A DNA stretch of 34,193 nt from a virus. The DNA is taken from positions 1 to 34,193 of the IMG/VR virus record IMGVR_UViG_3300044858_001244; one strand, given 5' to 3'. The position numbers and the translations under genes are program-made. Below the pieces are notes generated by a model. The model was not told the origin of the DNA. It ran no database searches and saw only the letters and a list, made by a program, of their open reading frames with translations. Shown here piece after piece: positions 3,435 through 24,083 of this stretch (the first letter of the stretch is position 1; the number at the start of each line of letters is the position of its first letter).

Positions 3435-4159
3435 CTACAGTAACGTGGTCTGTTTTTAGTAATGAAAATACGCCTTGGGTTCCGTTGGCTTTTTTTGATC
3501 CTGTTCCCGTATATTTGGAATTAGTTGGCTCAAGAAATTTTATTGCTGAAGACGCAAATAATTTTTTTAAGTGCCCCGCTTTAATTGGGTATTTTAAAAA
3601 TACTTTTGTTATTAAATCACCAACTGACATACATTTAACATTTGATTCAGAAAAAAATTGGATTGGTACAAAAAACTTTGATCAAAATTTTTACGACTCT
3701 TTTGTTGAAAACCGATGTAGCGTTAGAGCGGATTCTTCAACGCCTATACTAATGAGTCTAAAACTATACTATTATTTTTATTCTGAAACTTCATGTTTAG
3801 TTGAAATGTTAGATCCAACCATGCACTGCCAACCATGCGTTGAGAATATGCGTGTAATTCCGGGTTCATTTGACATTTCAAAATGGTTTAGGTTTTTACA
3901 ACCTGTTTTTGAAGTTATCGACCCCAGTAAACCGTTAATTATAAAACGAGGCGACCCACTTTATTATGTTCGTTTAGTACCTAAAGATGATAGTAAAGTT
4001 GATTTAGTTTATAAAGAATTTAACAGAGAAATGTTCAACGAAACTAATAAGTGTATGAGTTTAAAATTTGGCCTTAAAAATTTACCTCTAAAAACATTAT
4101 ATGAATTAGGGAAACGCATCAATAAAAATGTTTTTAAATCAGGAGGCAATCTAAAATGA
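3431..4159 (+). CDS. A+T-rich protein of unknown function between repeat copies
   Basis: A 242-residue protein (MTTVTWSVFSNENTPWVP...) whose start and stop both lie inside copies of the same direct repeat (3409-3434 and 4134-4159). Codon third positions are dominated by A and T, clearly unlike the glycosyltransferase before and the gene after. Motif-like segments include KCPALIGYFKNTFVIKSP and a Cys pair (HCQPCVENM). The KCPA..FKN..VIKSP pattern is reminiscent of unnamed proteins seen in other aquatic phages near glycosylation genes; this is a recollection, not a match. No signal peptide or membrane span. The gene is probably real, with clear ribosome site and coupling, but its function is unknown. 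Composition plus repeat borders suggest recent acquisition as one unit. Confidence 0.8.
   Translation: MTTVTWSVFSNENTPWVPLAFFDPVPVYLELVGSRNFIAEDANNFFKCPALIGYFKNTFVIKSPTDIHLTFDSEKNWIGTKNFDQNFYDSFVENRCSVRADSSTPILMSLKLYYYFYSETSCLVEMLDPTMHCQPCVENMRVIPGSFDISKWFRFLQPVFEVIDPSKPLIIKRGDPLYYVRLVPKDDSKVDLVYKEFNREMFNETNKCMSLKFGLKNLPLKTLYELGKRINKNVFKSGGNLK
4134..4159 (+). repeat. Right copy of the direct repeat, carrying an optimal ribosome site
   Basis: Matches 3409-3434 at 24 of 26 positions. Here the purine run is aggagg, a near-perfect Shine-Dalgarno, whereas the left copy has gggggg. It ends the A+T-rich gene and starts the Rap1a/Tai-like gene at 4156 by ATGA overlap. Confidence 0.85.
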
Positions 4160-4482
4160 AAAAACTAATTGTGGGTCTGCTGTTTGTCCCATGCATGGCG
4201 AGTGCCGAGTTTATGAGCGGCAACAGCCTTCATAGCAAAATGACTGGAGATTTTGGTGACAAGATGCAAGCCTTGGGTTTTATTCAAGGGGTGTTTGACG
4301 TGTACGTCAGCGTCACGTTCTGTTCGCCTGATAATGTGACCGCCGGGCAGGTGTCCGACATGGTCAAGAGATATTTGGATAACAACCCCTCCACCCGTCA
4401 CAAAACCGCAGAGTCTCTTATTAACCAAGCCCTGAAACAGGCATGGCCCTGCGCTAACAATCGTGGTGGCACTAGGCTATGA
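4156..4482 (+). CDS. Rap1a/Tai-family-like periplasmic protein
   Basis: A 108-residue protein with a clear signal peptide (MKKLIVGLLFVPCMASA, cleavage after residue 17). The mature part follows the pattern of the Rap1a/Tai family: FMSGNSL, then a helix with ALGFIQGVFD, then FCSPDNVTAGQ, a VSDMVKRYLDNNP segment and a final ALKQAWPC. Family members act in the periplasm as immunity proteins against type VI amidase effectors, but many relatives of unknown role exist in phages and bacteria. The Cys pair expected around the first helix (ELC...C.GYI in typical members) is missing here, while C56 and C99 remain. Placed in a phage, it might modulate a peptidoglycan enzyme or protect the cell from a rival; this is inference. 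The start is fixed by the aggagg ribosome site and ATGA overlap. Confidence 0.75.
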   Translation: MKKLIVGLLFVPCMASAEFMSGNSLHSKMTGDFGDKMQALGFIQGVFDVYVSVTFCSPDNVTAGQVSDMVKRYLDNNPSTRHKTAESLINQALKQAWPCANNRGGTRL

Positions 4483-4658
4483 GCGACCGTGAATATGAGT
4501 TTTTCTGCCCAAGGTGTGGGCATTGTTGCCAACAGCGTGAATGGATTGGGCTGACGGATGAGGAAATAGAAAACCTGTGGGAAATGGCACAGGCGTGGAA
4601 CGCCCCAAAACATTTTTATATTTTGATTGCGGCTAAACTAAAAGAGAAGAACGCATGA
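4479..4658 (+). CDS. Mini-protein with CPRCGHCC metal-binding motif
   Basis: A 59-residue ORF with ATGA overlaps at both ends (start in the Rap1a-like stop, stop in the ATG at 4655). The N-terminus has FFCPRCGHCCQQ (cysteines 10, 13, 16 and 17), followed by IGLTDEEIENLWEMA. A CxxCGxCC motif followed by an LT-x-EEI helix recalls the N-terminal end of the YkgJ zinc/iron-chelating family, but this protein is far shorter than that family. It therefore looks like a stand-alone metal-binding fragment. The tight coupling supports translation. Function unknown. Confidence 0.65.
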   Translation: MSDREYEFFCPRCGHCCQQREWIGLTDEEIENLWEMAQAWNAPKHFYILIAAKLKEKNA

Positions 4659-5287
4659 GTTACATTGTTTCCTCCTTGCCTCCCATAAAATGCTTTGTCC
4701 GCAAAGAGTTTCTTTACAATTTCCACAAGGGTCACGGAGAATTAGAGCCTGCCGTTTGGGTAAGCCTTAAAGCCCTGCGGGGTCAGGTGTTCCGCATCGA
4801 GTCCTTACTGCCTGCGTATGGTGCTCTGTACGACAAACTCCCAATCCATGCTTATGTGTGGAAGGAAGGCCATAGTGATTTGCCGATAGACACTTTGCAA
4901 TTGTGGGACTGCATGGGCTATAGATTCACGATCGTTGAAAAGATTGGGTTGCGTAATCTAGGCGTGAAGTTTCTCGGCAAGAATAAAGAGTGGTACTTTG
5001 GTACATATATGTTTACCGTGGATTTTTGTGCAGACGGAATGGATGTGGATACTGGATTTACTGAGCAGGCCGAGGAGCATAAAAGTTTTAACTGGATCAG
5101 GTTAGAGTCGGGTCAGTTTGCCTGTCAACCCAATAACAGATGTCTTTGGTACGATCAGTCGCTTATACCTGCTGAGACAAAGTTCCCTGATTTCCAAGCC
5201 GCTCAAACTTTTTGGACAGTAGATGGCACACGCAAATGGTCTGCGGGTGATGATTGGTTTTATGACATAAAGGAGAAGAACACATGA
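4655..5287 (+). CDS. Hypothetical protein, 210 residues
   Basis: A 210-residue protein starting MSYIVSSLPPIKCFVRKEFLY. It is rich in aromatic residues and Trp (LQLWDCMGYRF, KNKEWYFGTYMF, RKWSAGDDWFYD), which suggests an all-beta or alpha/beta soluble fold. No signal peptide, membrane segment or recognised catalytic motif was found. I recall similar unnamed proteins in other phages (N-terminal SSLPPIKCFVRKEFLY block) but cannot name a family. Start and stop both overlap their neighbours by four bases (ATGA at 4655 and at 5284). Confidence 0.75.
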   Translation: MSYIVSSLPPIKCFVRKEFLYNFHKGHGELEPAVWVSLKALRGQVFRIESLLPAYGALYDKLPIHAYVWKEGHSDLPIDTLQLWDCMGYRFTIVEKIGLRNLGVKFLGKNKEWYFGTYMFTVDFCADGMDVDTGFTEQAEEHKSFNWIRLESGQFACQPNNRCLWYDQSLIPAETKFPDFQAAQTFWTVDGTRKWSAGDDWFYDIKEKNT

Positions 5288-5598
5288 AAAAAGTAACTAA
5301 GAAAACTACAAAAACTACAAAGTCCCCGCCGATGGCTTTAGTCAAGATAGAGGAGTTAGATAAACTGCTTAAGGGTGTACGGCAAGTAAGCAATGACCTT
5401 GATGAGTTGTCATACAGATTTGATGAGGTCGGTCAGTTGATGGATTCAATAAACTATGATTTCGATTTCAATGACGAAAAGGGATCTTGCTTCTTCTATC
5501 TATCTGAACGGCTATACAAAGAAAACAAAGTACAAATGGAAGAGATACTGCAACGGCTGAATAAGTTGTTATTTGAAGCAAGAGGAATAAGAGGGTAG
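5284..5598 (+). CDS. Coiled-coil hypothetical protein
   Basis: A 104-residue protein with a very basic, Thr/Lys-rich N-terminal tail (MKKVTKKTTKTTKSPP) followed by a largely helical body (KIEELDKLLKGVRQVSNDLDELSYRFDEV and KVQMEEILQRLNKLLFEARG) with heptad-like leucines. The basic tail could bind nucleic acid or membranes. No family recognised. It is coupled to the preceding gene by ATGA and separated by 33 bases from the TctC gene. Confidence 0.65.
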   Translation: MKKVTKKTTKTTKSPPMALVKIEELDKLLKGVRQVSNDLDELSYRFDEVGQLMDSINYDFDFNDEKGSCFFYLSERLYKENKVQMEEILQRLNKLLFEARGIRG

Positions 5599-5631
5599 TA
5601 AACAAAAATTTTAATCAAAGGAGAAGTAACC

Positions 5632-6615
5632 ATGAAAAACCTAGCAGTCTTAGTTTTATCTTTAATCATCAGTGGTTCAGCATTTGCTTGGAAGCCAACT
5701 AAAAACATAACAATGGTTGTGCCATTCCCTCCGGGTAGTGGTAATGACCTGATCGCACGGTCTGTATCTGAGTCGGTATCTCGAACTACTGGGGTCACTA
5801 TTGTTATAGAGAACAAAGCGGGTGCGGGTGGTACGGTGGGTATGATGCACCTAAACACGTTGCCGAATGATGGGCATAGCGTATCGCTTGCCTCGATGGG
5901 TGGCATTACGGCTATGGACTACACGCTACCTAACTTTCATCAAAACCCCCCTTATGACATAGGATCTTTTTCGTATGCGCTCAAGGCAGGGTTCTCGCCC
6001 GTGGTTATTATTGCCAATGCAGATGACCCAGTTAGTACGCCAAAACAATTGATCGATGTGTTAACCAAAGAGAAGGTCGATGTCGGGCACTCCGGTGGTG
6101 GGGGTAGGCTTGGTTTAGAGTCTGCGTTAATTGCGATTGGAGCCAACAAGAATGCAGGGTTAAACAGGGTAGAGCATCGTGGCCCTGCTCAGACTGCCAT
6201 AGATGTTGCGGGTAAACACGTTAGGTTTGGTGCGTTGCCGTTAGCCGTTGCCGTTACGTTCAAAGATGCTAACAAGATAAAGATCATTACGCATACGGCT
6301 AGAGATCCAATCAAGACGCTACCGAACGTGCAACCGTTTAGCACAGTCGTGCCGGGATTTAATGCCACGGTGGATTGGGGTGTGGTGCTACCCAAGAGTA
6401 CCCCTAACGAAGTGCTAGATTGGTACGCCAAAGAATTTGGTAAGGCTTTAGACGATGAAAAGGTAAAGGCTTTCTTTGGTTCAAACTTTTTCTTTGTATC
6501 AGACCCCGCTCTCAGGACACCCAAAGCGTTTGCATCATGGGTAACGGAGCAGAGAAAGAAGAACACACCTGTGGTCAATGAAGTTGTTCGACTAATCAAG
6601 GTAGAGACTAAGTGA
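5632..6615 (+). CDS. Bug/TctC-family tripartite tricarboxylate transporter substrate-binding protein
   Basis: A 327-residue protein, the usual length of the TctC (Bug) family. Residues 1-19 are a Sec signal peptide ending AFA. The mature protein starts WKPTKNITMVVPFPPGSGNDL, with the family's hallmark PFPPGG-type loop (here PFPPGSGND) and the following ENKAGAGGTVGM segment that contacts the carboxylate ligand. Family members bind carboxylates in the periplasm and hand them to TctAB permeases or act as orphan sensors. No permease gene is present, so any transport must rely on host TctAB. A good ribosome site (aaggaga) precedes the ATG. The stop overlaps the GTG of the PP-loop gene. Base composition resembles the phage average, so the gene is not an obvious very recent arrival. 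Identity is strong; ligand unknown. Confidence 0.92.
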   Translation: MKNLAVLVLSLIISGSAFAWKPTKNITMVVPFPPGSGNDLIARSVSESVSRTTGVTIVIENKAGAGGTVGMMHLNTLPNDGHSVSLASMGGITAMDYTLPNFHQNPPYDIGSFSYALKAGFSPVVIIANADDPVSTPKQLIDVLTKEKVDVGHSGGGGRLGLESALIAIGANKNAGLNRVEHRGPAQTAIDVAGKHVRFGALPLAVAVTFKDANKIKIITHTARDPIKTLPNVQPFSTVVPGFNATVDWGVVLPKSTPNEVLDWYAKEFGKALDDEKVKAFFGSNFFFVSDPALRTPKAFASWVTEQRKKNTPVVNEVVRLIKVETK

Positions 6616-7439
6616 AATACCATATCACCGCTGACAATAGGATTGAATGTACTTTAGATTACTCATTGAAGGGTAAAACTAAATCGTTCAAAGAGGAAGT
6701 AGCAGATCACTTTAAACATATTGTGGAAGGCCACGATCAAGTCTACCTGTTGTTTAGCGGTGGTATGGATAGTCGTTTCCTAGCCCTTCTTTTAATGGAA
6801 CTAGGGGTAGACTTCACCGCCATAACTTATGCGTTTAGTTCTAATTATGACGATTATGATTCTCGAGCAAGTAAAGATTTTTCTAAACGACACGGCTTTA
6901 AACACGAACTTTTTAATCTTGAATTAAAAGAGTTTAGGTCTTGTATTGAATATCACTATGAAAAAGGATTGTGTTTCCCCGCTTTAAATACATATTACAT
7001 ACTTACTACTTTGCGACGGTACAATCAACCTAATTGTGTGTTCTTAACTGGTGCGGCTTCAGAATTTATTATTCAAAATAAAAAAATTAATCTTAGTTGG
7101 TTCTTACCTGTTTACCAAACTGTCTACCCAAACATTCATAACTTTACAACTGATAGGATATTGTTTTCTTATCTTGACGAGCCAATAATAAAAGACAATT
7201 GGCAAGATTTATCTTTGGGTAGATTTTATTTAAGAAACAAAGTTTATGGGAGTATTTACTCAGATAAACTAAAAAGCCTTAAGAAAAAAGGGCCGGATCA
7301 TCAACACATGGTGGATTTATTTATAGAAATGACTACTAAAAAATACAACGAAGAAGAATTTTTTAAACGAGTAATCGCCGGAAATTTTACACTTGACTTG
7401 GAAGAGTACTATAACGGAGGCGTAAACAATGGCAGTTGA
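6612..7439 (+). CDS. PP-loop ATP pyrophosphatase (asparagine-synthase-like domain)
   Basis: A 275-residue protein beginning with GTG in a GTGA overlap with the TctC stop. VYLLFSGGMDSRFLALLL (about residues 44-61) contains the PP-loop SGGMDS that binds ATP pyrophosphate in adenine-nucleotide alpha-hydrolase-like enzymes. It is followed by DFTAITYAF and a KRHGFKHELFNL strand, as in the synthetase domain of asparagine synthases. There is no N-terminal glutaminase domain, so it would use ammonia or another nucleophile, or adenylate a different substrate. From about 6840 the gene is strikingly A+T-rich compared with TctC, suggesting separate origin. Candidate roles are amidation or sulfuration of a small molecule, peptide, tRNA or base; nothing fixes the substrate. 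Confidence 0.8.
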   Translation: MKYHITADNRIECTLDYSLKGKTKSFKEEVADHFKHIVEGHDQVYLLFSGGMDSRFLALLLMELGVDFTAITYAFSSNYDDYDSRASKDFSKRHGFKHELFNLELKEFRSCIEYHYEKGLCFPALNTYYILTTLRRYNQPNCVFLTGAASEFIIQNKKINLSWFLPVYQTVYPNIHNFTTDRILFSYLDEPIIKDNWQDLSLGRFYLRNKVYGSIYSDKLKSLKKKGPDHQHMVDLFIEMTTKKYNEEEFFKRVIAGNFTLDLEEYYNGGVNNGS

Positions 7440-7635
7440 GATGACTGATTTTGAGCAGGGGGTGTGGGACTATCTAATGTCTCACCCAAAAACCCCGGTT
7501 CAGGCAAATAAAATCGCAAAGGAGTGGATCGTTAGTAAGACTAGGGTATATCGGGTGTTAGAAAGGTTTGTTGAGAATGGGATCGCGGATGTAGTTCGCA
7601 TCGGATCCAAGAAATTTTATAGGGTGAAAGAATGA
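7429..7635 (+). CDS. Small winged-helix DNA-binding protein
   Basis: A 68-residue protein overlapping the end of the PP-loop gene by 11 bases, with ggaggc upstream of the ATG at 7429 (a second ATG at 7441 is possible). The body reads as a winged helix: QGVWDYLMSHPKTPVQANKI, recognition helix VSKTRVYRVLERFVENG, then wing IADVVRIGSKKFYRVKE. This is the layout of MarR/ArsR-like or phage transcription regulators. Its position suggests control of nearby accessory genes, which is inference. The stop overlaps the next start as ATGA. Confidence 0.75.
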   Translation: MAVEMTDFEQGVWDYLMSHPKTPVQANKIAKEWIVSKTRVYRVLERFVENGIADVVRIGSKKFYRVKE

Positions 7636-18275: not shown

Positions 18276-21200
18276 CTAGCGACTAATACCTGCGGCCTCC
18301 ATGACCCGATAACCTTGACGGGCAACCTGATCATATATCTTCTGCAACCGGTTAATTTTTTCGCGGCGCTCTTCGGGATCACCTTCGTAGTCCCGTTTAA
18401 GTATGTTGATTTGCGAGCGGATCTGAGCCATCTGATCTTGGATGCGCCGCAACGATGGGGCAACCGACATGAGTTTAATATTTTCCTCATCGCTGATGAA
18501 TTCTTTTAATTCCTCAACGCGGCCCTCTTTCTTCATACGGTTAACCGCGTTAACAGCCTCTTGAGAATTCTTTATCAGATCGTAGAAATCGGTAGCCGGT
18601 TTACTGGTATTTGGGTCAGTCAAGAAGGCTTTAAAGAAACCTTGGTTCTCTAGGTTCTTAGCAGGAGGTTCTTTGCCGGTGGCTGTGGTAATCACATTGC
18701 TTGCCATGCCTGTGGAGAATGAGCCAAGTTCCGCAAAGTAACCTTGGATAAGGTGGTCAATCTTAGCGGGAGACAACCCTATTTCGGATAACCCAAGACG
18801 GCTTAGACTCTTAGCAAACTCACCCGCATTTGGACCTCTCATCTCTACGGGTAAACCCTGATCACTCATACCTTCGATTGCGCGGCCTGTAAACAGCGAA
18901 TGGTTAAATATGGACTCCAGTGCTGGCTTAAAAGCCTGCGGAATTAGCACTGCTTCTCCCGGGAGACTTCTACGCAGACTGCGGAAATAAGAACCTAAAA
19001 CTTCTTTGCCCGTGCTGGTATCTGCCATGTAGCGGACAGCCCCTTCGGGAATGGTCTTAAATAAGAAACCAACCTCAAACGGGATTGGGATTTTAATAAA
19101 TGAGCCAGCACTACCAATAGGGCTTGGCAGTAGCCAGTTATCGTCTTTTACGTTGTCAGGCAGTTTCTTATAGTCCTCATCGTCCTGCATGAGCATTGCA
19201 TAAACCGCAGAAAACACGACCATCATGGCAGCACGTTTTTTAAATAAATCTTGCGCAATTTTCTTTTCGGCAGGATTAAGACCGTATCCCGTAGCCGTGC
19301 GGTATAGAGTATCTAAACTTGTAATAGCCGCCGAGAAGAACGGAATTGAATGACGCAAAACATTCAGCATTTGGGAGTTACCCCGAACCGCAAAGTTAAT
19401 AGACTCCCGCGCCTTATGAACCGCATAGTTGATGGCGTCTTTCTCAGACATGCCTTGCTTAAGTGCATACGCTTTTTCGTTTTTAAAAATTGCTACGCGG
19501 GTGGCAGCGTCAGAGGCTTCGTGCATCCGCATAATTTTGTGGATGGCCTTATCCAACATAGTTGGTGATAGTTTTTCTGTACCTACCTGTTTTAAAAAAT
19601 CTTGAGCAGATGGAACATTAAGCGCCGATGCCCCAACTAAATTAGCCATTGGGTCAATTTGACCGATCACCCCACGCTCTGCAAGTATCCGGGCCTCCTC
19701 CGAATTATCTCTAAGAACCTGTATGTACTCTTTTGCCGCGTGGAACGGGGTAACAATCTGATTTAAGTTACCAGCGATACTTGCGTGGATTGGGTCACGT
19801 ATAAGTTGGCGTATCCAGTAGATTGGGTTAATCAACGCACCAGCCCGTAGGACTTGGGTGGTTGCCGAGATGCCTTTCATCAGCGGACCCAACTCGTAGT
19901 TCATCATTTGAAACGCCACTAAATCATTTGGGTTATCTAAGATGACATGGACTACCCCGTGCTTATCCGCGTTCGGGTTGGTTGGGTCTCTGTATTTTAG
20001 ATTAATATCGGGGTTGCTTGGGTTTGTGGCAATTTTCGCCGCGTCAATGCCCATGCTCATTAACTGCTGCACCGCTACCCGTCGTGTTTGGTTTTGATAA
20101 GCCGCCGCAATCTGCGAAGCATAGTGCTTATCCATGTTCTCCCAAATGTTGCGTTGCAACTCACTGCCTTCAAGATGCTCAATTAACCGAACAGTTTTAG
20201 TGCCAGTGCTTTTGCCGGTGTAGGTTTCTTGTTCACTTGGGAGCAAATCCACCCGGGAGGCGTAGAGCGGCACGTAGAAGTTACGTTTGCGCAGGCGGTC
20301 TGCCTCTTCTTTTGAAAGCAAGCCGGTGTTTTCCCACAGGTCCAGAAGGCTACGGTTGATGTTGCGCCAGATATCCAAAATTTCTTGGACTTCAGGTACG
20401 GCGTCTAACTGTTGCTCGGCCCAGTCTATATGCGCCTGTGTAACTTGCTTCTCACGGTTTAACGTCAAGTCTTTCAGGTACATCTTACGGATGGCCTTAG
20501 CCTCATTTACCAGTTTCATGATGTCAGTCAGGGACGCACCTGCCGCCTTGTACTGCTTGGCTAGGGCTATCTTTTGCTTTGCCTCTAGCATCTTTCCAGC
20601 GGCTATACGGCGACGCTCGGCATCAACTTGTTGGATTTCACGACCCCGCAAAATACGAGAGATTTCAGCCACATACCCACGGCCTGAAAATCCGGTGCCC
20701 TTGACAATATCGTTGTCGTCTAACTTATCAGCAAGAATCTGGGAGCGAGCCATATTATTGGCATCGCGCTGAATAACGATTGACCCATCGCTGTTAACTA
20801 CTGGGATCCCCGTCTGCAAACCTACCTTAATAAGGTTGATGACTTGATTAAACGAACGAATCAGCATATCCGCACGCAACTGACCGTTCTGGAATACCGG
20901 CAAAGAACTCAATGTCTTAGATAACCCAGTCCCCGAATCTACGGCAGCGATACGAAACTTCGTCCACCAGTCTCCATTAAAAGCGTCTGTAATGTTCTTA
21001 GCCGCATCTTTGACCTTTTGGGATGTCGTGGGTGACGGCTGTAACTTTGTCGTAGTTGGCAGAGTGTACTTTTGACCAAGCCCGGGTACGGACGGTCCCG
21101 GTGCAGGCGTAGGTGCCGGGGCTGTTGGAGTTGCGGTTACCCCCGGAGCGATAGCGGAGAAGATGTCCTCTTCTGCTGGTACAGAGGGAGCAGCGCATTC

Positions 21201-24083
21201 TTCTACTTGTATACCCACTGGCCTACCAGCACGCGGCATCGGGGTTACAGGAGTCTGGGAAGTAACTAGTTGTTCGGTAAGACTAAGGATCTCAGCAAGT
21301 GCGGTTTGTGCTCTGGGTGATAGACCGATCAAACGGCGGATCATTTCTACAAACGAATTAAATGCGCTCTTGCCTTTATATTGAATGCCTTCAAGCACAC
21401 GCCGGAAGTCTGCGTTAGTCATTGACCACGACACCATCTCGTCGGCTTTGTGAACGGTTCTACCATAATGTTTAGAACCAAATGCATTTGTACCCGTTAG
21501 AAATTTCAGTTCGTAAGGTTTGATAGTCCCATCACGACGCTTACGCTGTAGTTCTTTTTTAACATGACTACGTAGGTCTTCAATTTCTTTTACGATCCGA
21601 CCTTCATTTGTATTAGGGTTTACCTGCCCATACCGGATCAACGCAATAGTTACCGTATGAAGTAACTCATGCATAACAACTTCATAGGTTGCGCCAAAAG
21701 GACGCCCGGAGCCGGTACCCGAAATTACCAACTCCATTAGATTACCTTTGGGGTATACGTGGCCCGCAGCGCGATTACTTAACTGCAATGCTCGGGACAT
21801 CGAGGGGCTAGTAGAAAGCGTAAACGTAAATTTGTAGCCACGCTTTTTCATACGGTCTACCGCGTCTTTGACTCCTCTCATCATTTCCCGCATAGCAGGA
21901 GGGCCGTTATTTAGCGCGTAGTTAAGCAGTCCATCGTAGTCAAGACCTTTGATCTCGTTTTCGATAGATACATCGGTAATTTTTTTCTCTTCTTCAAATA
22001 CTTTTTCAATCTGCTCTGGTGTTTGTGTGGACTCACCAACTAGACGCTCGTTATACAGATTTACGATGTCTTGGAAGTTGACCGCGCTACCATGACCCCG
22101 ATTAACAAAGCCTAACCATGCGTTCTTTTCTTCCGCATTTAGATCGCCAAACGCAGGGTGATCGTCATTTTTGTGGCGGTTCCAAGCAGCCTCTGGGTCC
22201 ATCGGTGCGGCGGGCGGTGCGGTAACTGGAGGCGCCGGGGGTGCTCCTTCTTCAAATAGGCCAGCCTGCTCGGCACCTTGGAACTGTCGGCTCCTAATAC
22301 CAGTGTCGATGTCCATACCCGTCATGCGTTTGTAGACGGTCTCAAGCAATTCTTTCTGGGCTTCGCTAAGGGCTTTCATGCCAGCCGGTAGACGTGCGGT
22401 GCGGTCAGCCTCAAACAACTGCTCCATCGCTTGGACAGGATCTTCGTTAGTTTTTAGAAACTCGGCTAGCCTGTCATTCAGCGCTTTAGTTGACGCAGGG
22501 TTATTGCCCTTCAGAATCTTAGAAGCACTAGGATCTTGTTTAGCCTCTTTGACGGTGCTCTCTACAGTGCCCGGGAGATCGATGGCTTCGGGTGCCGTTG
22601 GGGTAGGCAAAGGGGTTGGCGCAGGCTGCTCGGTGGGGGCTTTACCCGGGAACAACTCTTGCTGTCCCGTAAGTGGCATCTCCAACTGTTCTCCCTCAAG
22701 TTCTGGGGGTGCAGGCGGGGCGGGGGGTTGTTCTTCGTAGCCAACAACTTTGCCCTCTTTATCCAAAATAGGACGCAGATTTTCTGTGGCTTCGGGCAAT
22801 CTACCTTTTGGTATAACACCAGCCAAGTCTCTCGCGGGAGCAAACCCCGGACCTTCGGGAGTAGCCACGCCCTCTAGTTCTAACTCCGATACCGCAGGCT
22901 CTCCATAAGTGGTAGGAGACACAGGACGGCCCGTAGGTGGTGTGCCGGGAGGTGGCCCCGGGGGTAATCCTTGTGGTTGAGGTGGTTTAGCACCTTCGGA
23001 TTTACCAAATAAAATATCGGTAGACATCTGCAAGCCACCACCGCCAATCGCACCGCGCAGGCCAGAGTCTATAAATTTGACTAGGTTTTCAGGGGTAAAG
23101 ATTTCTTTGTTTTCATCAACAAAGTTGACCGCCGCGGCGTTGGTTACTTCTTGCGCAGCCTCGGTAAGGCCCTCAGTTAAAGCCCCCTTGCCAAGTCCTT
23201 TGGCACCACGCAAGTACCAAGCGCCCACTAGTTCTTCGTTGGTAATCCCTTTTCCCCGGGCGGCTCGTATCAGGCTAACTGGGGTTGCGGCATCTAACAG
23301 GGCGTTAAAGGAACCCGCACCAATTGCCGGTAATAGAGATTCCTGCCCGGTCTCAGAGTAAATAGTCTGAAAAGCAGCGGGAATATTAAGCGCTGCCGAG
23401 CCTATATAGGCACTGCCGACATCTGCCGCTAACTGGTTACGGAACAAGGCTTTTTCTGCCGCCGTTTTACCAAGTGCCGCAGCACGCTGTCCGGCAATAC
23501 CAGATACAAATTCTTCGGCTGCTCCGGGTGCTCCACGCACGGCGGCTTCTTTGGCCTCTTCCAAGGCTTTGCGTTTAGCAATTTCTCCCGCCGCTTGGCT
23601 AGACTTTGCCACAGCCCCCCTAGTAAGGAGGGATCCAAAACCCCCAGTAAAAATACCGGGAAGTAAAGACGCAACGGACTCGCCAAATGCTTCTTTTGCG
23701 TAATTAAGGGCTTGTATCGGGTCTTCTATTTGTTTGTAAGTTTCAAACTCAGCAGGGAAACGCTTTGCAATTTCTTCCTGTGTTTGGATTGCTTCTTCGT
23801 ACTGACGTTTTTTATAGTTTTCAATAGATGGCTGAAAACTTTCGGGAGCAATTTTTTCAAGTGCGGTTGCACCCATAATGGGTATAAAGTCTGCAATCAA
23901 AGACCCTACATTTTTACCGCCTCGTTTTACAGCACTCATAAAGGTGCCGTAATTTTCCACTGCCGTTTTAAATTCTTTAGGACTAAACCCTTCTGTATCT
24001 AAATAGCCATCGATATGGTAAGAGGGCGCACCCTGATCGACCATCTTTTGGACATTGTCCCTAATTCTTGCAAAGTCGGACAT
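18276..24083 (-). CDS. Giant internal virion protein with zincin-like metallopeptidase region
   Basis: A 1935-residue polyvalent protein, probably carried in the virion and ejected with DNA. The N-terminal part has a helical region with hydrophobic glycine-rich segments (ASLLPGIFTGGFGSLL, about 155-170). A long Pro-rich linker (about 370-500) is followed by MHELLHTVT (about 802-810), a zincin HExxH, and about 70 residues later by KADEMVSWSMTN, which matches the third-ligand position (DE.V.EA.TN) of metallopeptidase-like domains in such phage proteins. After a second Pro/Thr linker (about 985-1030) come a coiled-coil-rich region and a C-terminal part with NPIYWIRQLIRDPIH (about 1423-1437), typical of large polyvalent-protein-associated regions. 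Position at the end of the virion operon parallels T7 gp15/gp16. Only the general role is inferable. Confidence 0.85.
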   Translation of the reverse strand: MSDFARIRDNVQKMVDQGAPSYHIDGYLDTEGFSPKEFKTAVENYGTFMSAVKRGGKNVGSLIADFIPIMGATALEKIAPESFQPSIENYKKRQYEEAIQTQEEIAKRFPAEFETYKQIEDPIQALNYAKEAFGESVASLLPGIFTGGFGSLLTRGAVAKSSQAAGEIAKRKALEEAKEAAVRGAPGAAEEFVSGIAGQRAAALGKTAAEKALFRNQLAADVGSAYIGSAALNIPAAFQTIYSETGQESLLPAIGAGSFNALLDAATPVSLIRAARGKGITNEELVGAWYLRGAKGLGKGALTEGLTEAAQEVTNAAAVNFVDENKEIFTPENLVKFIDSGLRGAIGGGGLQMSTDILFGKSEGAKPPQPQGLPPGPPPGTPPTGRPVSPTTYGEPAVSELELEGVATPEGPGFAPARDLAGVIPKGRLPEATENLRPILDKEGKVVGYEEQPPAPPAPPELEGEQLEMPLTGQQELFPGKAPTEQPAPTPLPTPTAPEAIDLPGTVESTVKEAKQDPSASKILKGNNPASTKALNDRLAEFLKTNEDPVQAMEQLFEADRTARLPAGMKALSEAQKELLETVYKRMTGMDIDTGIRSRQFQGAEQAGLFEEGAPPAPPVTAPPAAPMDPEAAWNRHKNDDHPAFGDLNAEEKNAWLGFVNRGHGSAVNFQDIVNLYNERLVGESTQTPEQIEKVFEEEKKITDVSIENEIKGLDYDGLLNYALNNGPPAMREMMRGVKDAVDRMKKRGYKFTFTLSTSPSMSRALQLSNRAAGHVYPKGNLMELVISGTGSGRPFGATYEVVMHELLHTVTIALIRYGQVNPNTNEGRIVKEIEDLRSHVKKELQRKRRDGTIKPYELKFLTGTNAFGSKHYGRTVHKADEMVSWSMTNADFRRVLEGIQYKGKSAFNSFVEMIRRLIGLSPRAQTALAEILSLTEQLVTSQTPVTPMPRAGRPVGIQVEECAAPSVPAEEDIFSAIAPGVTATPTAPAPTPAPGPSVPGLGQKYTLPTTTKLQPSPTTSQKVKDAAKNITDAFNGDWWTKFRIAAVDSGTGLSKTLSSLPVFQNGQLRADMLIRSFNQVINLIKVGLQTGIPVVNSDGSIVIQRDANNMARSQILADKLDDNDIVKGTGFSGRGYVAEISRILRGREIQQVDAERRRIAAGKMLEAKQKIALAKQYKAAGASLTDIMKLVNEAKAIRKMYLKDLTLNREKQVTQAHIDWAEQQLDAVPEVQEILDIWRNINRSLLDLWENTGLLSKEEADRLRKRNFYVPLYASRVDLLPSEQETYTGKSTGTKTVRLIEHLEGSELQRNIWENMDKHYASQIAAAYQNQTRRVAVQQLMSMGIDAAKIATNPSNPDINLKYRDPTNPNADKHGVVHVILDNPNDLVAFQMMNYELGPLMKGISATTQVLRAGALINPIYWIRQLIRDPIHASIAGNLNQIVTPFHAAKEYIQVLRDNSEEARILAERGVIGQIDPMANLVGASALNVPSAQDFLKQVGTEKLSPTMLDKAIHKIMRMHEASDAATRVAIFKNEKAYALKQGMSEKDAINYAVHKARESINFAVRGNSQMLNVLRHSIPFFSAAITSLDTLYRTATGYGLNPAEKKIAQDLFKKRAAMMVVFSAVYAMLMQDDEDYKKLPDNVKDDNWLLPSPIGSAGSFIKIPIPFEVGFLFKTIPEGAVRYMADTSTGKEVLGSYFRSLRRSLPGEAVLIPQAFKPALESIFNHSLFTGRAIEGMSDQGLPVEMRGPNAGEFAKSLSRLGLSEIGLSPAKIDHLIQGYFAELGSFSTGMASNVITTATGKEPPAKNLENQGFFKAFLTDPNTSKPATDFYDLIKNSQEAVNAVNRMKKEGRVEELKEFISDEENIKLMSVAPSLRRIQDQMAQIRSQINILKRDYEGDPEERREKINRLQKIYDQVARQGYRVMEAAGISR

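Follow-up and report, generated by a model that had tools for sequence, protein, structure and literature searches.

What might a secreted solute-binding protein of a bacterial transport family do for a phage? Phage auxiliary genes are usually viewed as recent host loans. The question is raised here by a tctC-like gene in a 34.2-kb virus record, which is classed as linear and was analyzed over its entire length (the window). A sequence-only reading had described its product as a phage-borne secreted TctC/Bug protein, located among phage genes and unaccompanied by TctA or TctB. The setting is that of a phage, as the window also encodes a DNA polymerase, a helicase, a primase/helicase, an endolysin, and virion and DNA-ejection proteins. 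There is a single TctC match in the window. We likewise recognized no TctA or TctB when the translations of its ORFs were read by eye, and by this reading the window does not appear to encode a complete TctABC transporter, with TctA alongside TctC. A 1,935-aa ORF on the minus strand (18276-24083), among the virion genes, probably encodes a large internal or ejected virion protein. The features around tctC are as follows.

4156..4482, +, second secreted protein of the cassette, Rap1a/Tai immunity-like (PF18602, E 3.7e-18)
4655..5287, +, phrog_3704 family gene (E 2.2e-72)
5284..5598, +, left flanking gene, 104 aa, joined directly to the 7429 gene in sister phages
5599..7425, +, two-gene insert of tctC and the PP-loop gene, missing from sister phages; edges accurate to within a few bases
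5617..5628, +, Shine-Dalgarno region AAAGGAGAAGTA upstream of the tctC ATG, from the sequence
5632..6615, +, tctC-like gene, putative secreted solute-binding protein of the phage clade (Pfam, AlphaFold, Foldseek, tree)
6612..7439, +, PP-loop ATP pyrophosphatase-like protein, 275 aa, LLFSGGMDS, GTG start
7429..7635, +, right flanking gene, 68-aa winged-helix protein (TrmB-like), which anchors a variable cargo slot in ~60 related contigs

The tctC ORF is intact, with an ATG start and a TGA stop, and encodes 327 aa. The Pfam family PF03401 (TctC) matches the protein over profile positions 1-271 of 274 with 87.3 bits (cut-off 27, E 1.6e-24), consistent with the earlier description of a full-length TctC. 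A sequence search of the PDB returned TctC/Bug proteins throughout (BugD, 4.6e-25), and these are also the nearest solved relatives in a profile search. An AlphaFold model, for which 15 phage relatives were supplied, has a pLDDT of 91.4 and a pTM of 0.86 and contains the two-domain, Bug-type flytrap fold. The top Foldseek matches are BugE, Bug27, TphC, BugD and MatC, and AdpC is grouped likewise. TM values are 0.73-0.89 for the listed solved TctCs and 0.67-0.74 for apo 4x9t. The N-terminus has a positive start, a hydrophobic helix at residues 2-14 and AFA preceding W20, as read from the sequence and the model. Residues 1-19 form a putative Sec-type signal peptide (MKNLAVLVLSLIISGSAFA/W), identified by eye as in the sequence-only reading. 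The signal peptide ends in [FLM]AW in all 69 clade members checked. The protein matches no PHROG family, and no study of phage TctC/Bug proteins was found in the open-access literature, with few subscription journals and preprints covered. Both agree with the earlier remark that this is not a standard auxiliary metabolic gene.

Comparison with related phages revealed that tctC arrived together with one other gene. The insert is clean, ~1.83 kb in size, and contains exactly tctC and the PP-loop gene. It follows the stop of the 5284 gene and ends before the 7429 gene starts. We gathered 64 related contigs by scanning for the small winged-helix gene at 7429. The site is empty in L094-L099, L021, L112, L122-L124 and L150, where the 5284 gene is followed by the 7429 gene with ~3 bases separating stop and start. 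The sister phages L095 and L097 are ~97% identical to the window in DNA over 6.2 kb. TctC is absent from 100 records of close relatives of the window phage (0/50 and 0/50), indicating that tctC is a strain-level insert in this phage group. The block also occurs, with 1 mismatch over 14,612 bases, on L001, a separate IMG/VR contig. A chimeric assembly or a join to host DNA, the check that had been asked of the block, is ruled out by this second contig and by the exact empty sites in the sister phages.

The slot before the winged-helix gene, or the neighboring cassette, is a hypervariable cargo site across relatives. Cargo in the same slot, named by eye, includes PAPS-reductase-like (L109), oxygenase-like (L103 and L136) and HNH (L100) genes. 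Their positions, with one further cargo, are given below.

L109:5213-5998, PAPS-reductase-like cargo
L103:5372-5989, oxygenase-like cargo
L100:4761-5069, HNH cargo
L135:3176-4246, HD/oxygenase-like cargo

Many related phages also have the Rap1a/Tai-like (PF18602) protein, and finding a T6SS-immunity-like protein in phages at all is unusual. A relative of the phrog_3704 gene adjoins tctC on its upstream side in L160 (53% identity).

Sequence searches placed the window TctC among other phage proteins. A pattern search with the whole protein found L001 alone, and with its N-terminal part two more phage contigs. An alignment of three phage TctCs as the query retrieved relatives in 74 viral contigs. 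Run on 85,000 genomes of bacteria and archaea, the same alignment found nine loci, which at 22-27% identity are ordinary TctCs. A profile of 15 dereplicated phage TctCs was also run on genomes to offset the bias of short patterns. Its best scores were 179 bits in 399 Burkholderiales genomes and 175 bits in 398 genomes across Pseudomonadota, and an alphaproteobacterial class, from which 385 genomes were run without a positive control, gave nothing at the threshold. The TctC of L283, which is outside the model and was found via its PP-loop neighbor, scores 315 bits even though it lacks the WQPTK signature. On plasmids there is no close relative of the window TctC, the best match being ~30% identical. 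A recent host capture was rejected on the absence of close relatives from plasmids, the 85,000 genomes and ~1,180 Pseudomonadota genomes.

A maximum-likelihood tree was built from the phage rows and the best bacterial matches from the ~1,180 Pseudomonadota genomes. In it, the 16 main phage rows group together as a single clade to the exclusion of every bacterial row (support 99/100, stem 1.58), and the window groups with L160 and L161 (100/98). The HMM and tree checks proposed earlier thus confirm the family and separate the phage homologues from the bacterial rows, and the idea of a lone host acquisition gives way to a phage-only clade. Nor does the window TctC lie close to any bacterial row of this tree, whereas a PstS-type, host-derived auxiliary gene would be expected to lie close to the copy of its host. 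By sequence comparison, this clade has at least 70 proteins and none in the bacterial genomes searched. The median dN/dS is 0.076 over 260 pairs of phage TctCs, which are not independent and in many of which dS is high. This ratio indicates that the phage tctC genes are kept by strong purifying selection. The presence of this branch in dozens of phage contigs and in no searched bacterial genome suggests long use by phages for their own ends.

Some TctC-like sequences lie outside this clade. One viral contig, L158, has an ordinary TctC. Three further rows, a second set of short paralogs, stand apart on a very long branch. One very divergent short TctC-like paralog is found at L157:6328-8386 (the contig is also L185), with others in L173 and L201. 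The short paralogs are ~288-300 aa, and at some loci they directly precede a 397-aa protein with a PP-loop-like SAGRDS motif. Two human-gut 'phage' scaffolds with TctC were excluded as evidence, being unverified and unannotated, and one of them lying on a long branch.

The phage clade also has a distinctive pocket. The ligand loop of the TctC family has the motif P-F-x-A-G-G-x-x-D (PMC5812351). The PFPPG-type loop that had been noted is present as PFPPGSGND at P31-D39, which retains P, F, D and the first G. The second conserved glycine, however, is S36, a position occupied by G in 41 of 50 bacterial rows and by S in 5. For the rest of the pocket we used the terephthalate contacts of TphC (PMC8556258). 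In the alignment, the clade has Asn at the position of TphC A36, a backbone contact. At the D37 position Glu is found in 66 of 69 clade members, and the window retains Asp. Both the T179 and N197 positions are Pro in 70/70 members, and the F244 position is Trp. Pro at the N197 position is outside the commonest residues of the 50 bacterial rows. Positions that contact the TphC ligand are altered across the clade, and the phage ligand may therefore not resemble the known ones. The alignment suggests that the ligand or the binding mode of the phage clade differs from those of characterized TctCs. These clade-specific changes also make the earlier guess of a C4-C6 carboxylate uncertain.

The second gene of the insert is tightly linked to tctC. 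Its GTG start shares 4 nt (GTGA) with the tctC stop, and tctC is translationally coupled to it, a pairing that recurs in three other phages. The PP-loop gene directly follows tctC in four distinct phages, with a 4-nt overlap in the window/L001, L160 and L161 and a 4-nt gap in L283. A reverse search that started from the PP-loop protein returned L283 independently, together with L281 and L282, in which the gene occurs without TctC (L281:3425-4822, L282:4001-4834). In L281 it is located directly after an oxygenase-like gene. The earlier interpretation of a secreted, phage-borne TctC without its transporter is retained, as is, as a possibility, its idea of uptake through host permeases, but it had missed both this coupling and the phage-only clade.

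PP-loop proteins of the window subgroup are 275-297 aa. The SGGxDS nucleotide-binding motif is present as SGGMDS at residues 49-54 and is invariant in the alignments. Matches to Asn_synthase (PF00733, 18.3 bits vs 21), QueC (PF06508, 19.0 vs 22) and DUF7411 are all under the Pfam cut-offs. A profile search found MJ0690, asparagine synthetase and NAD synthetase, all with low scores, and the chemistry is thus fixed no further than ATP-dependent adenylation, which we infer from the motif. The AlphaFold model is poor (pLDDT 54) and its Foldseek matches are weak. Because of this low pLDDT, only the N-terminal ATP-binding part of the model is believed.

Several carriers of the clade encode phage proteins. 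G110, a 383-kb record, encodes a T4-type portal and prohead protease. Other carriers encode a phage DNA polymerase (L192, L203), a baseplate wedge protein (L215), PhoH (L182), a DNA ligase (L165), an endolysin (L160) and a tail-fibre protein (L156/L161). The T4 portal is matched in 1 of 50 carrier records, many of which are fragments.

The gene neighborhoods are conserved. In 47 of 72 loci tctC overlaps the following gene by 4 nt. Its commonest neighbors are a weakly sulfotransferase-like protein (61/72 loci), a divergent methyltransferase-like protein (58/72), a 227-aa protein with an HxD...H pattern and no Pfam match (53/72), TilS-like PP-loop proteins (24/72) and a class-I glutamine amidotransferase (18/72). 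At 80% identity the loci fall into 15 groups, many being near copies, and these counts therefore overstate independence. The HxD...H pattern suggests that the 227-aa protein may be an Fe/2-oxoglutarate oxygenase. In the closest relatives of the window the PP-loop protein is the sole partner. The synteny check in other phage genomes that had been proposed finds both conserved operons and the TctC-PP-loop pair of L160, L161 and L283. Many phages have two or three TctC paralogs. At L162:6357-10404 TctC genes alternate with genes for helical proteins whose match to AurF is very weak, and a glutamine amidotransferase-like gene comes next.

TctA was found by HMM in two of 50 related phage records, many of them fragments. 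In L165 it is beside TctC (PF01970, 264 bits), and in G110 it is far from the main TctC. At L165:5434-7947, TctA and then a 348-aa secreted protein without a Pfam match lie directly upstream of TctC; this protein is possibly a divergent binding protein. In G110, a jumbo phage record, TctA is beside a weak TctC-like frame (locus L242, 372100-373918).

We propose that the window TctC is a periplasmic ligand binder that feeds a host TctA-type permease, and that the PP-loop enzyme uses the imported compound; we give this reading a probability of about 0.5. The Sec-exported, Venus-flytrap TctC/Bug protein would fill the host periplasm during infection and bind a small, probably carboxylated metabolite. 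It would then hand the metabolite to a host-encoded TctA/TctB-type permease, and the infected cell would thereby go on importing a compound needed by the phage. The coupled PP-loop enzyme would act in the cytoplasm, where it would probably adenylate the imported compound or its product. A precedent is the orphan PstS of cyanophages, which keeps phosphate uptake going during infection (PMC10976474). Most bacterial TctCs are orphans (PMC5812351) and are thought to share permeases (PMC5812351; PMC11452294). Because of this, and because two related phage records encode TctA, the missing TctA/TctB says little. Counting against an uptake role, the neighbors in most relatives are not transport or catabolic genes, 48 of the 50 phage records are without TctA, the pocket is altered across the clade, and L281 and L282 have the PP-loop gene without TctC.

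There are other readings. A possible but doubtful one is a phage-specific scavenging-and-tailoring module. In it, a TctC with an altered pocket would capture an external metabolite, and a host TctA (in a few phages, their own) would bring it in. Phage enzymes coupled to TctC (PP-loop ATPase, amidotransferase, sulfotransferase, oxygenase, methyltransferase) would then use it to modify the surface or the virion. It is rather unlikely that the protein binds its ligand in the periplasm with no transport at all, as a decoy, in anti-superinfection, or by detoxifying sequestration or presentation of a metabolite. Most records are without a permease, many phages have several paralogs, and the Rap1a-like secreted protein is alongside; however, the strongly conserved flytrap fold and the TctA of two phages favor delivery. 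Transport may also have been lost in a tailoring pathway for a surface glycan or other molecule, which TctC would help by binding an exported intermediate or precursor. The operon partners and the changed pocket are consistent with this, but most partner annotations are weak and the closest relatives of the window have the PP-loop partner alone. In addition, the partners have no signal peptide by eye and would therefore work in the cytoplasm, apart from an exported TctC. Such a helper role is about equally unlikely.

A ligand-loaded TctC could instead act on a host sensor kinase and reset host metabolism. Signaling by TctC-type proteins has a precedent in Bordetella, where citrate-bound BctC acts with BctE (PMC5812351), but no sensor or regulator is linked to tctC and the data give no specific pointer, making this improbable. 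Far less probable still is a gene that does nothing for the phage, whether an ordinary host gene captured recently or an artefact of assembly or of a prophage. The sequence-only reading was unable to exclude it, and L158 illustrates an ordinary TctC on a viral contig. It is opposed by the second contig, the empty sites, the phage-only clade and the purifying selection.

The preferred uptake reading has broader implications. Here a periplasmic binding protein has turned into a separate phage lineage that recurs among metagenome phages and is marked by a distinct pocket signature and operon. If TctC imports a metabolite, the PstS principle would be widened from phosphate to organic compounds, and this would be a testable case of phages controlling host uptake. 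The orphan TctC problem, the role of unpaired binding proteins, also gains a system that can be tested gene by gene.

The TctC family, orphan TctCs, orphan binding proteins in phages, a tctA domain hit in a SUP05 virus and a few Bug-labelled phage proteins were already known. Apparently undescribed in the literature covered are the phage-only clade and its pocket signature, the pairing of TctC with the PP-loop gene, and a phage TctA beside TctC. The window TctC resembles the Bug/TctC proteins (BugD, BugE, Bug27, AdpC, MatC, TphC) in its PF03401 match, fold, length, putative signal peptide, P-F-x-x-G loop and Asp39, and orphan status is usual among them as well. Unlike them, the phage TctCs form a separate clade, with Ser for the second glycine of the motif, Asn at TphC A36, Pro at T179 and N197, Trp249, Trp264-Tyr265 and the PP-loop coupling. 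Uncultured Caudovirales phage entries labelled 'PBP2_Bug_TTT domain containing protein' or 'Bordetella uptake protein' have the same fold (A0A6J5T247, TM 0.85 and 31% identity to the window TctC); we found no study of them in the literature, and the labels are apparently automatic. A tctA domain hit on a SUP05 viral contig was reported as a phage auxiliary metabolic gene with its role stated as unknown (PMC4164917). It is a TTT component as here, but a permease domain alone, with no TctC mentioned. Cyanophage PstS is likewise an orphan periplasmic binding protein encoded by phages, and it is expected to supply a transporter of the host. However, phage PstS copies cluster with those of hosts, are of several origins and show no synteny (PMC10976474), whereas the TctC clade is phage-only and syntenic.
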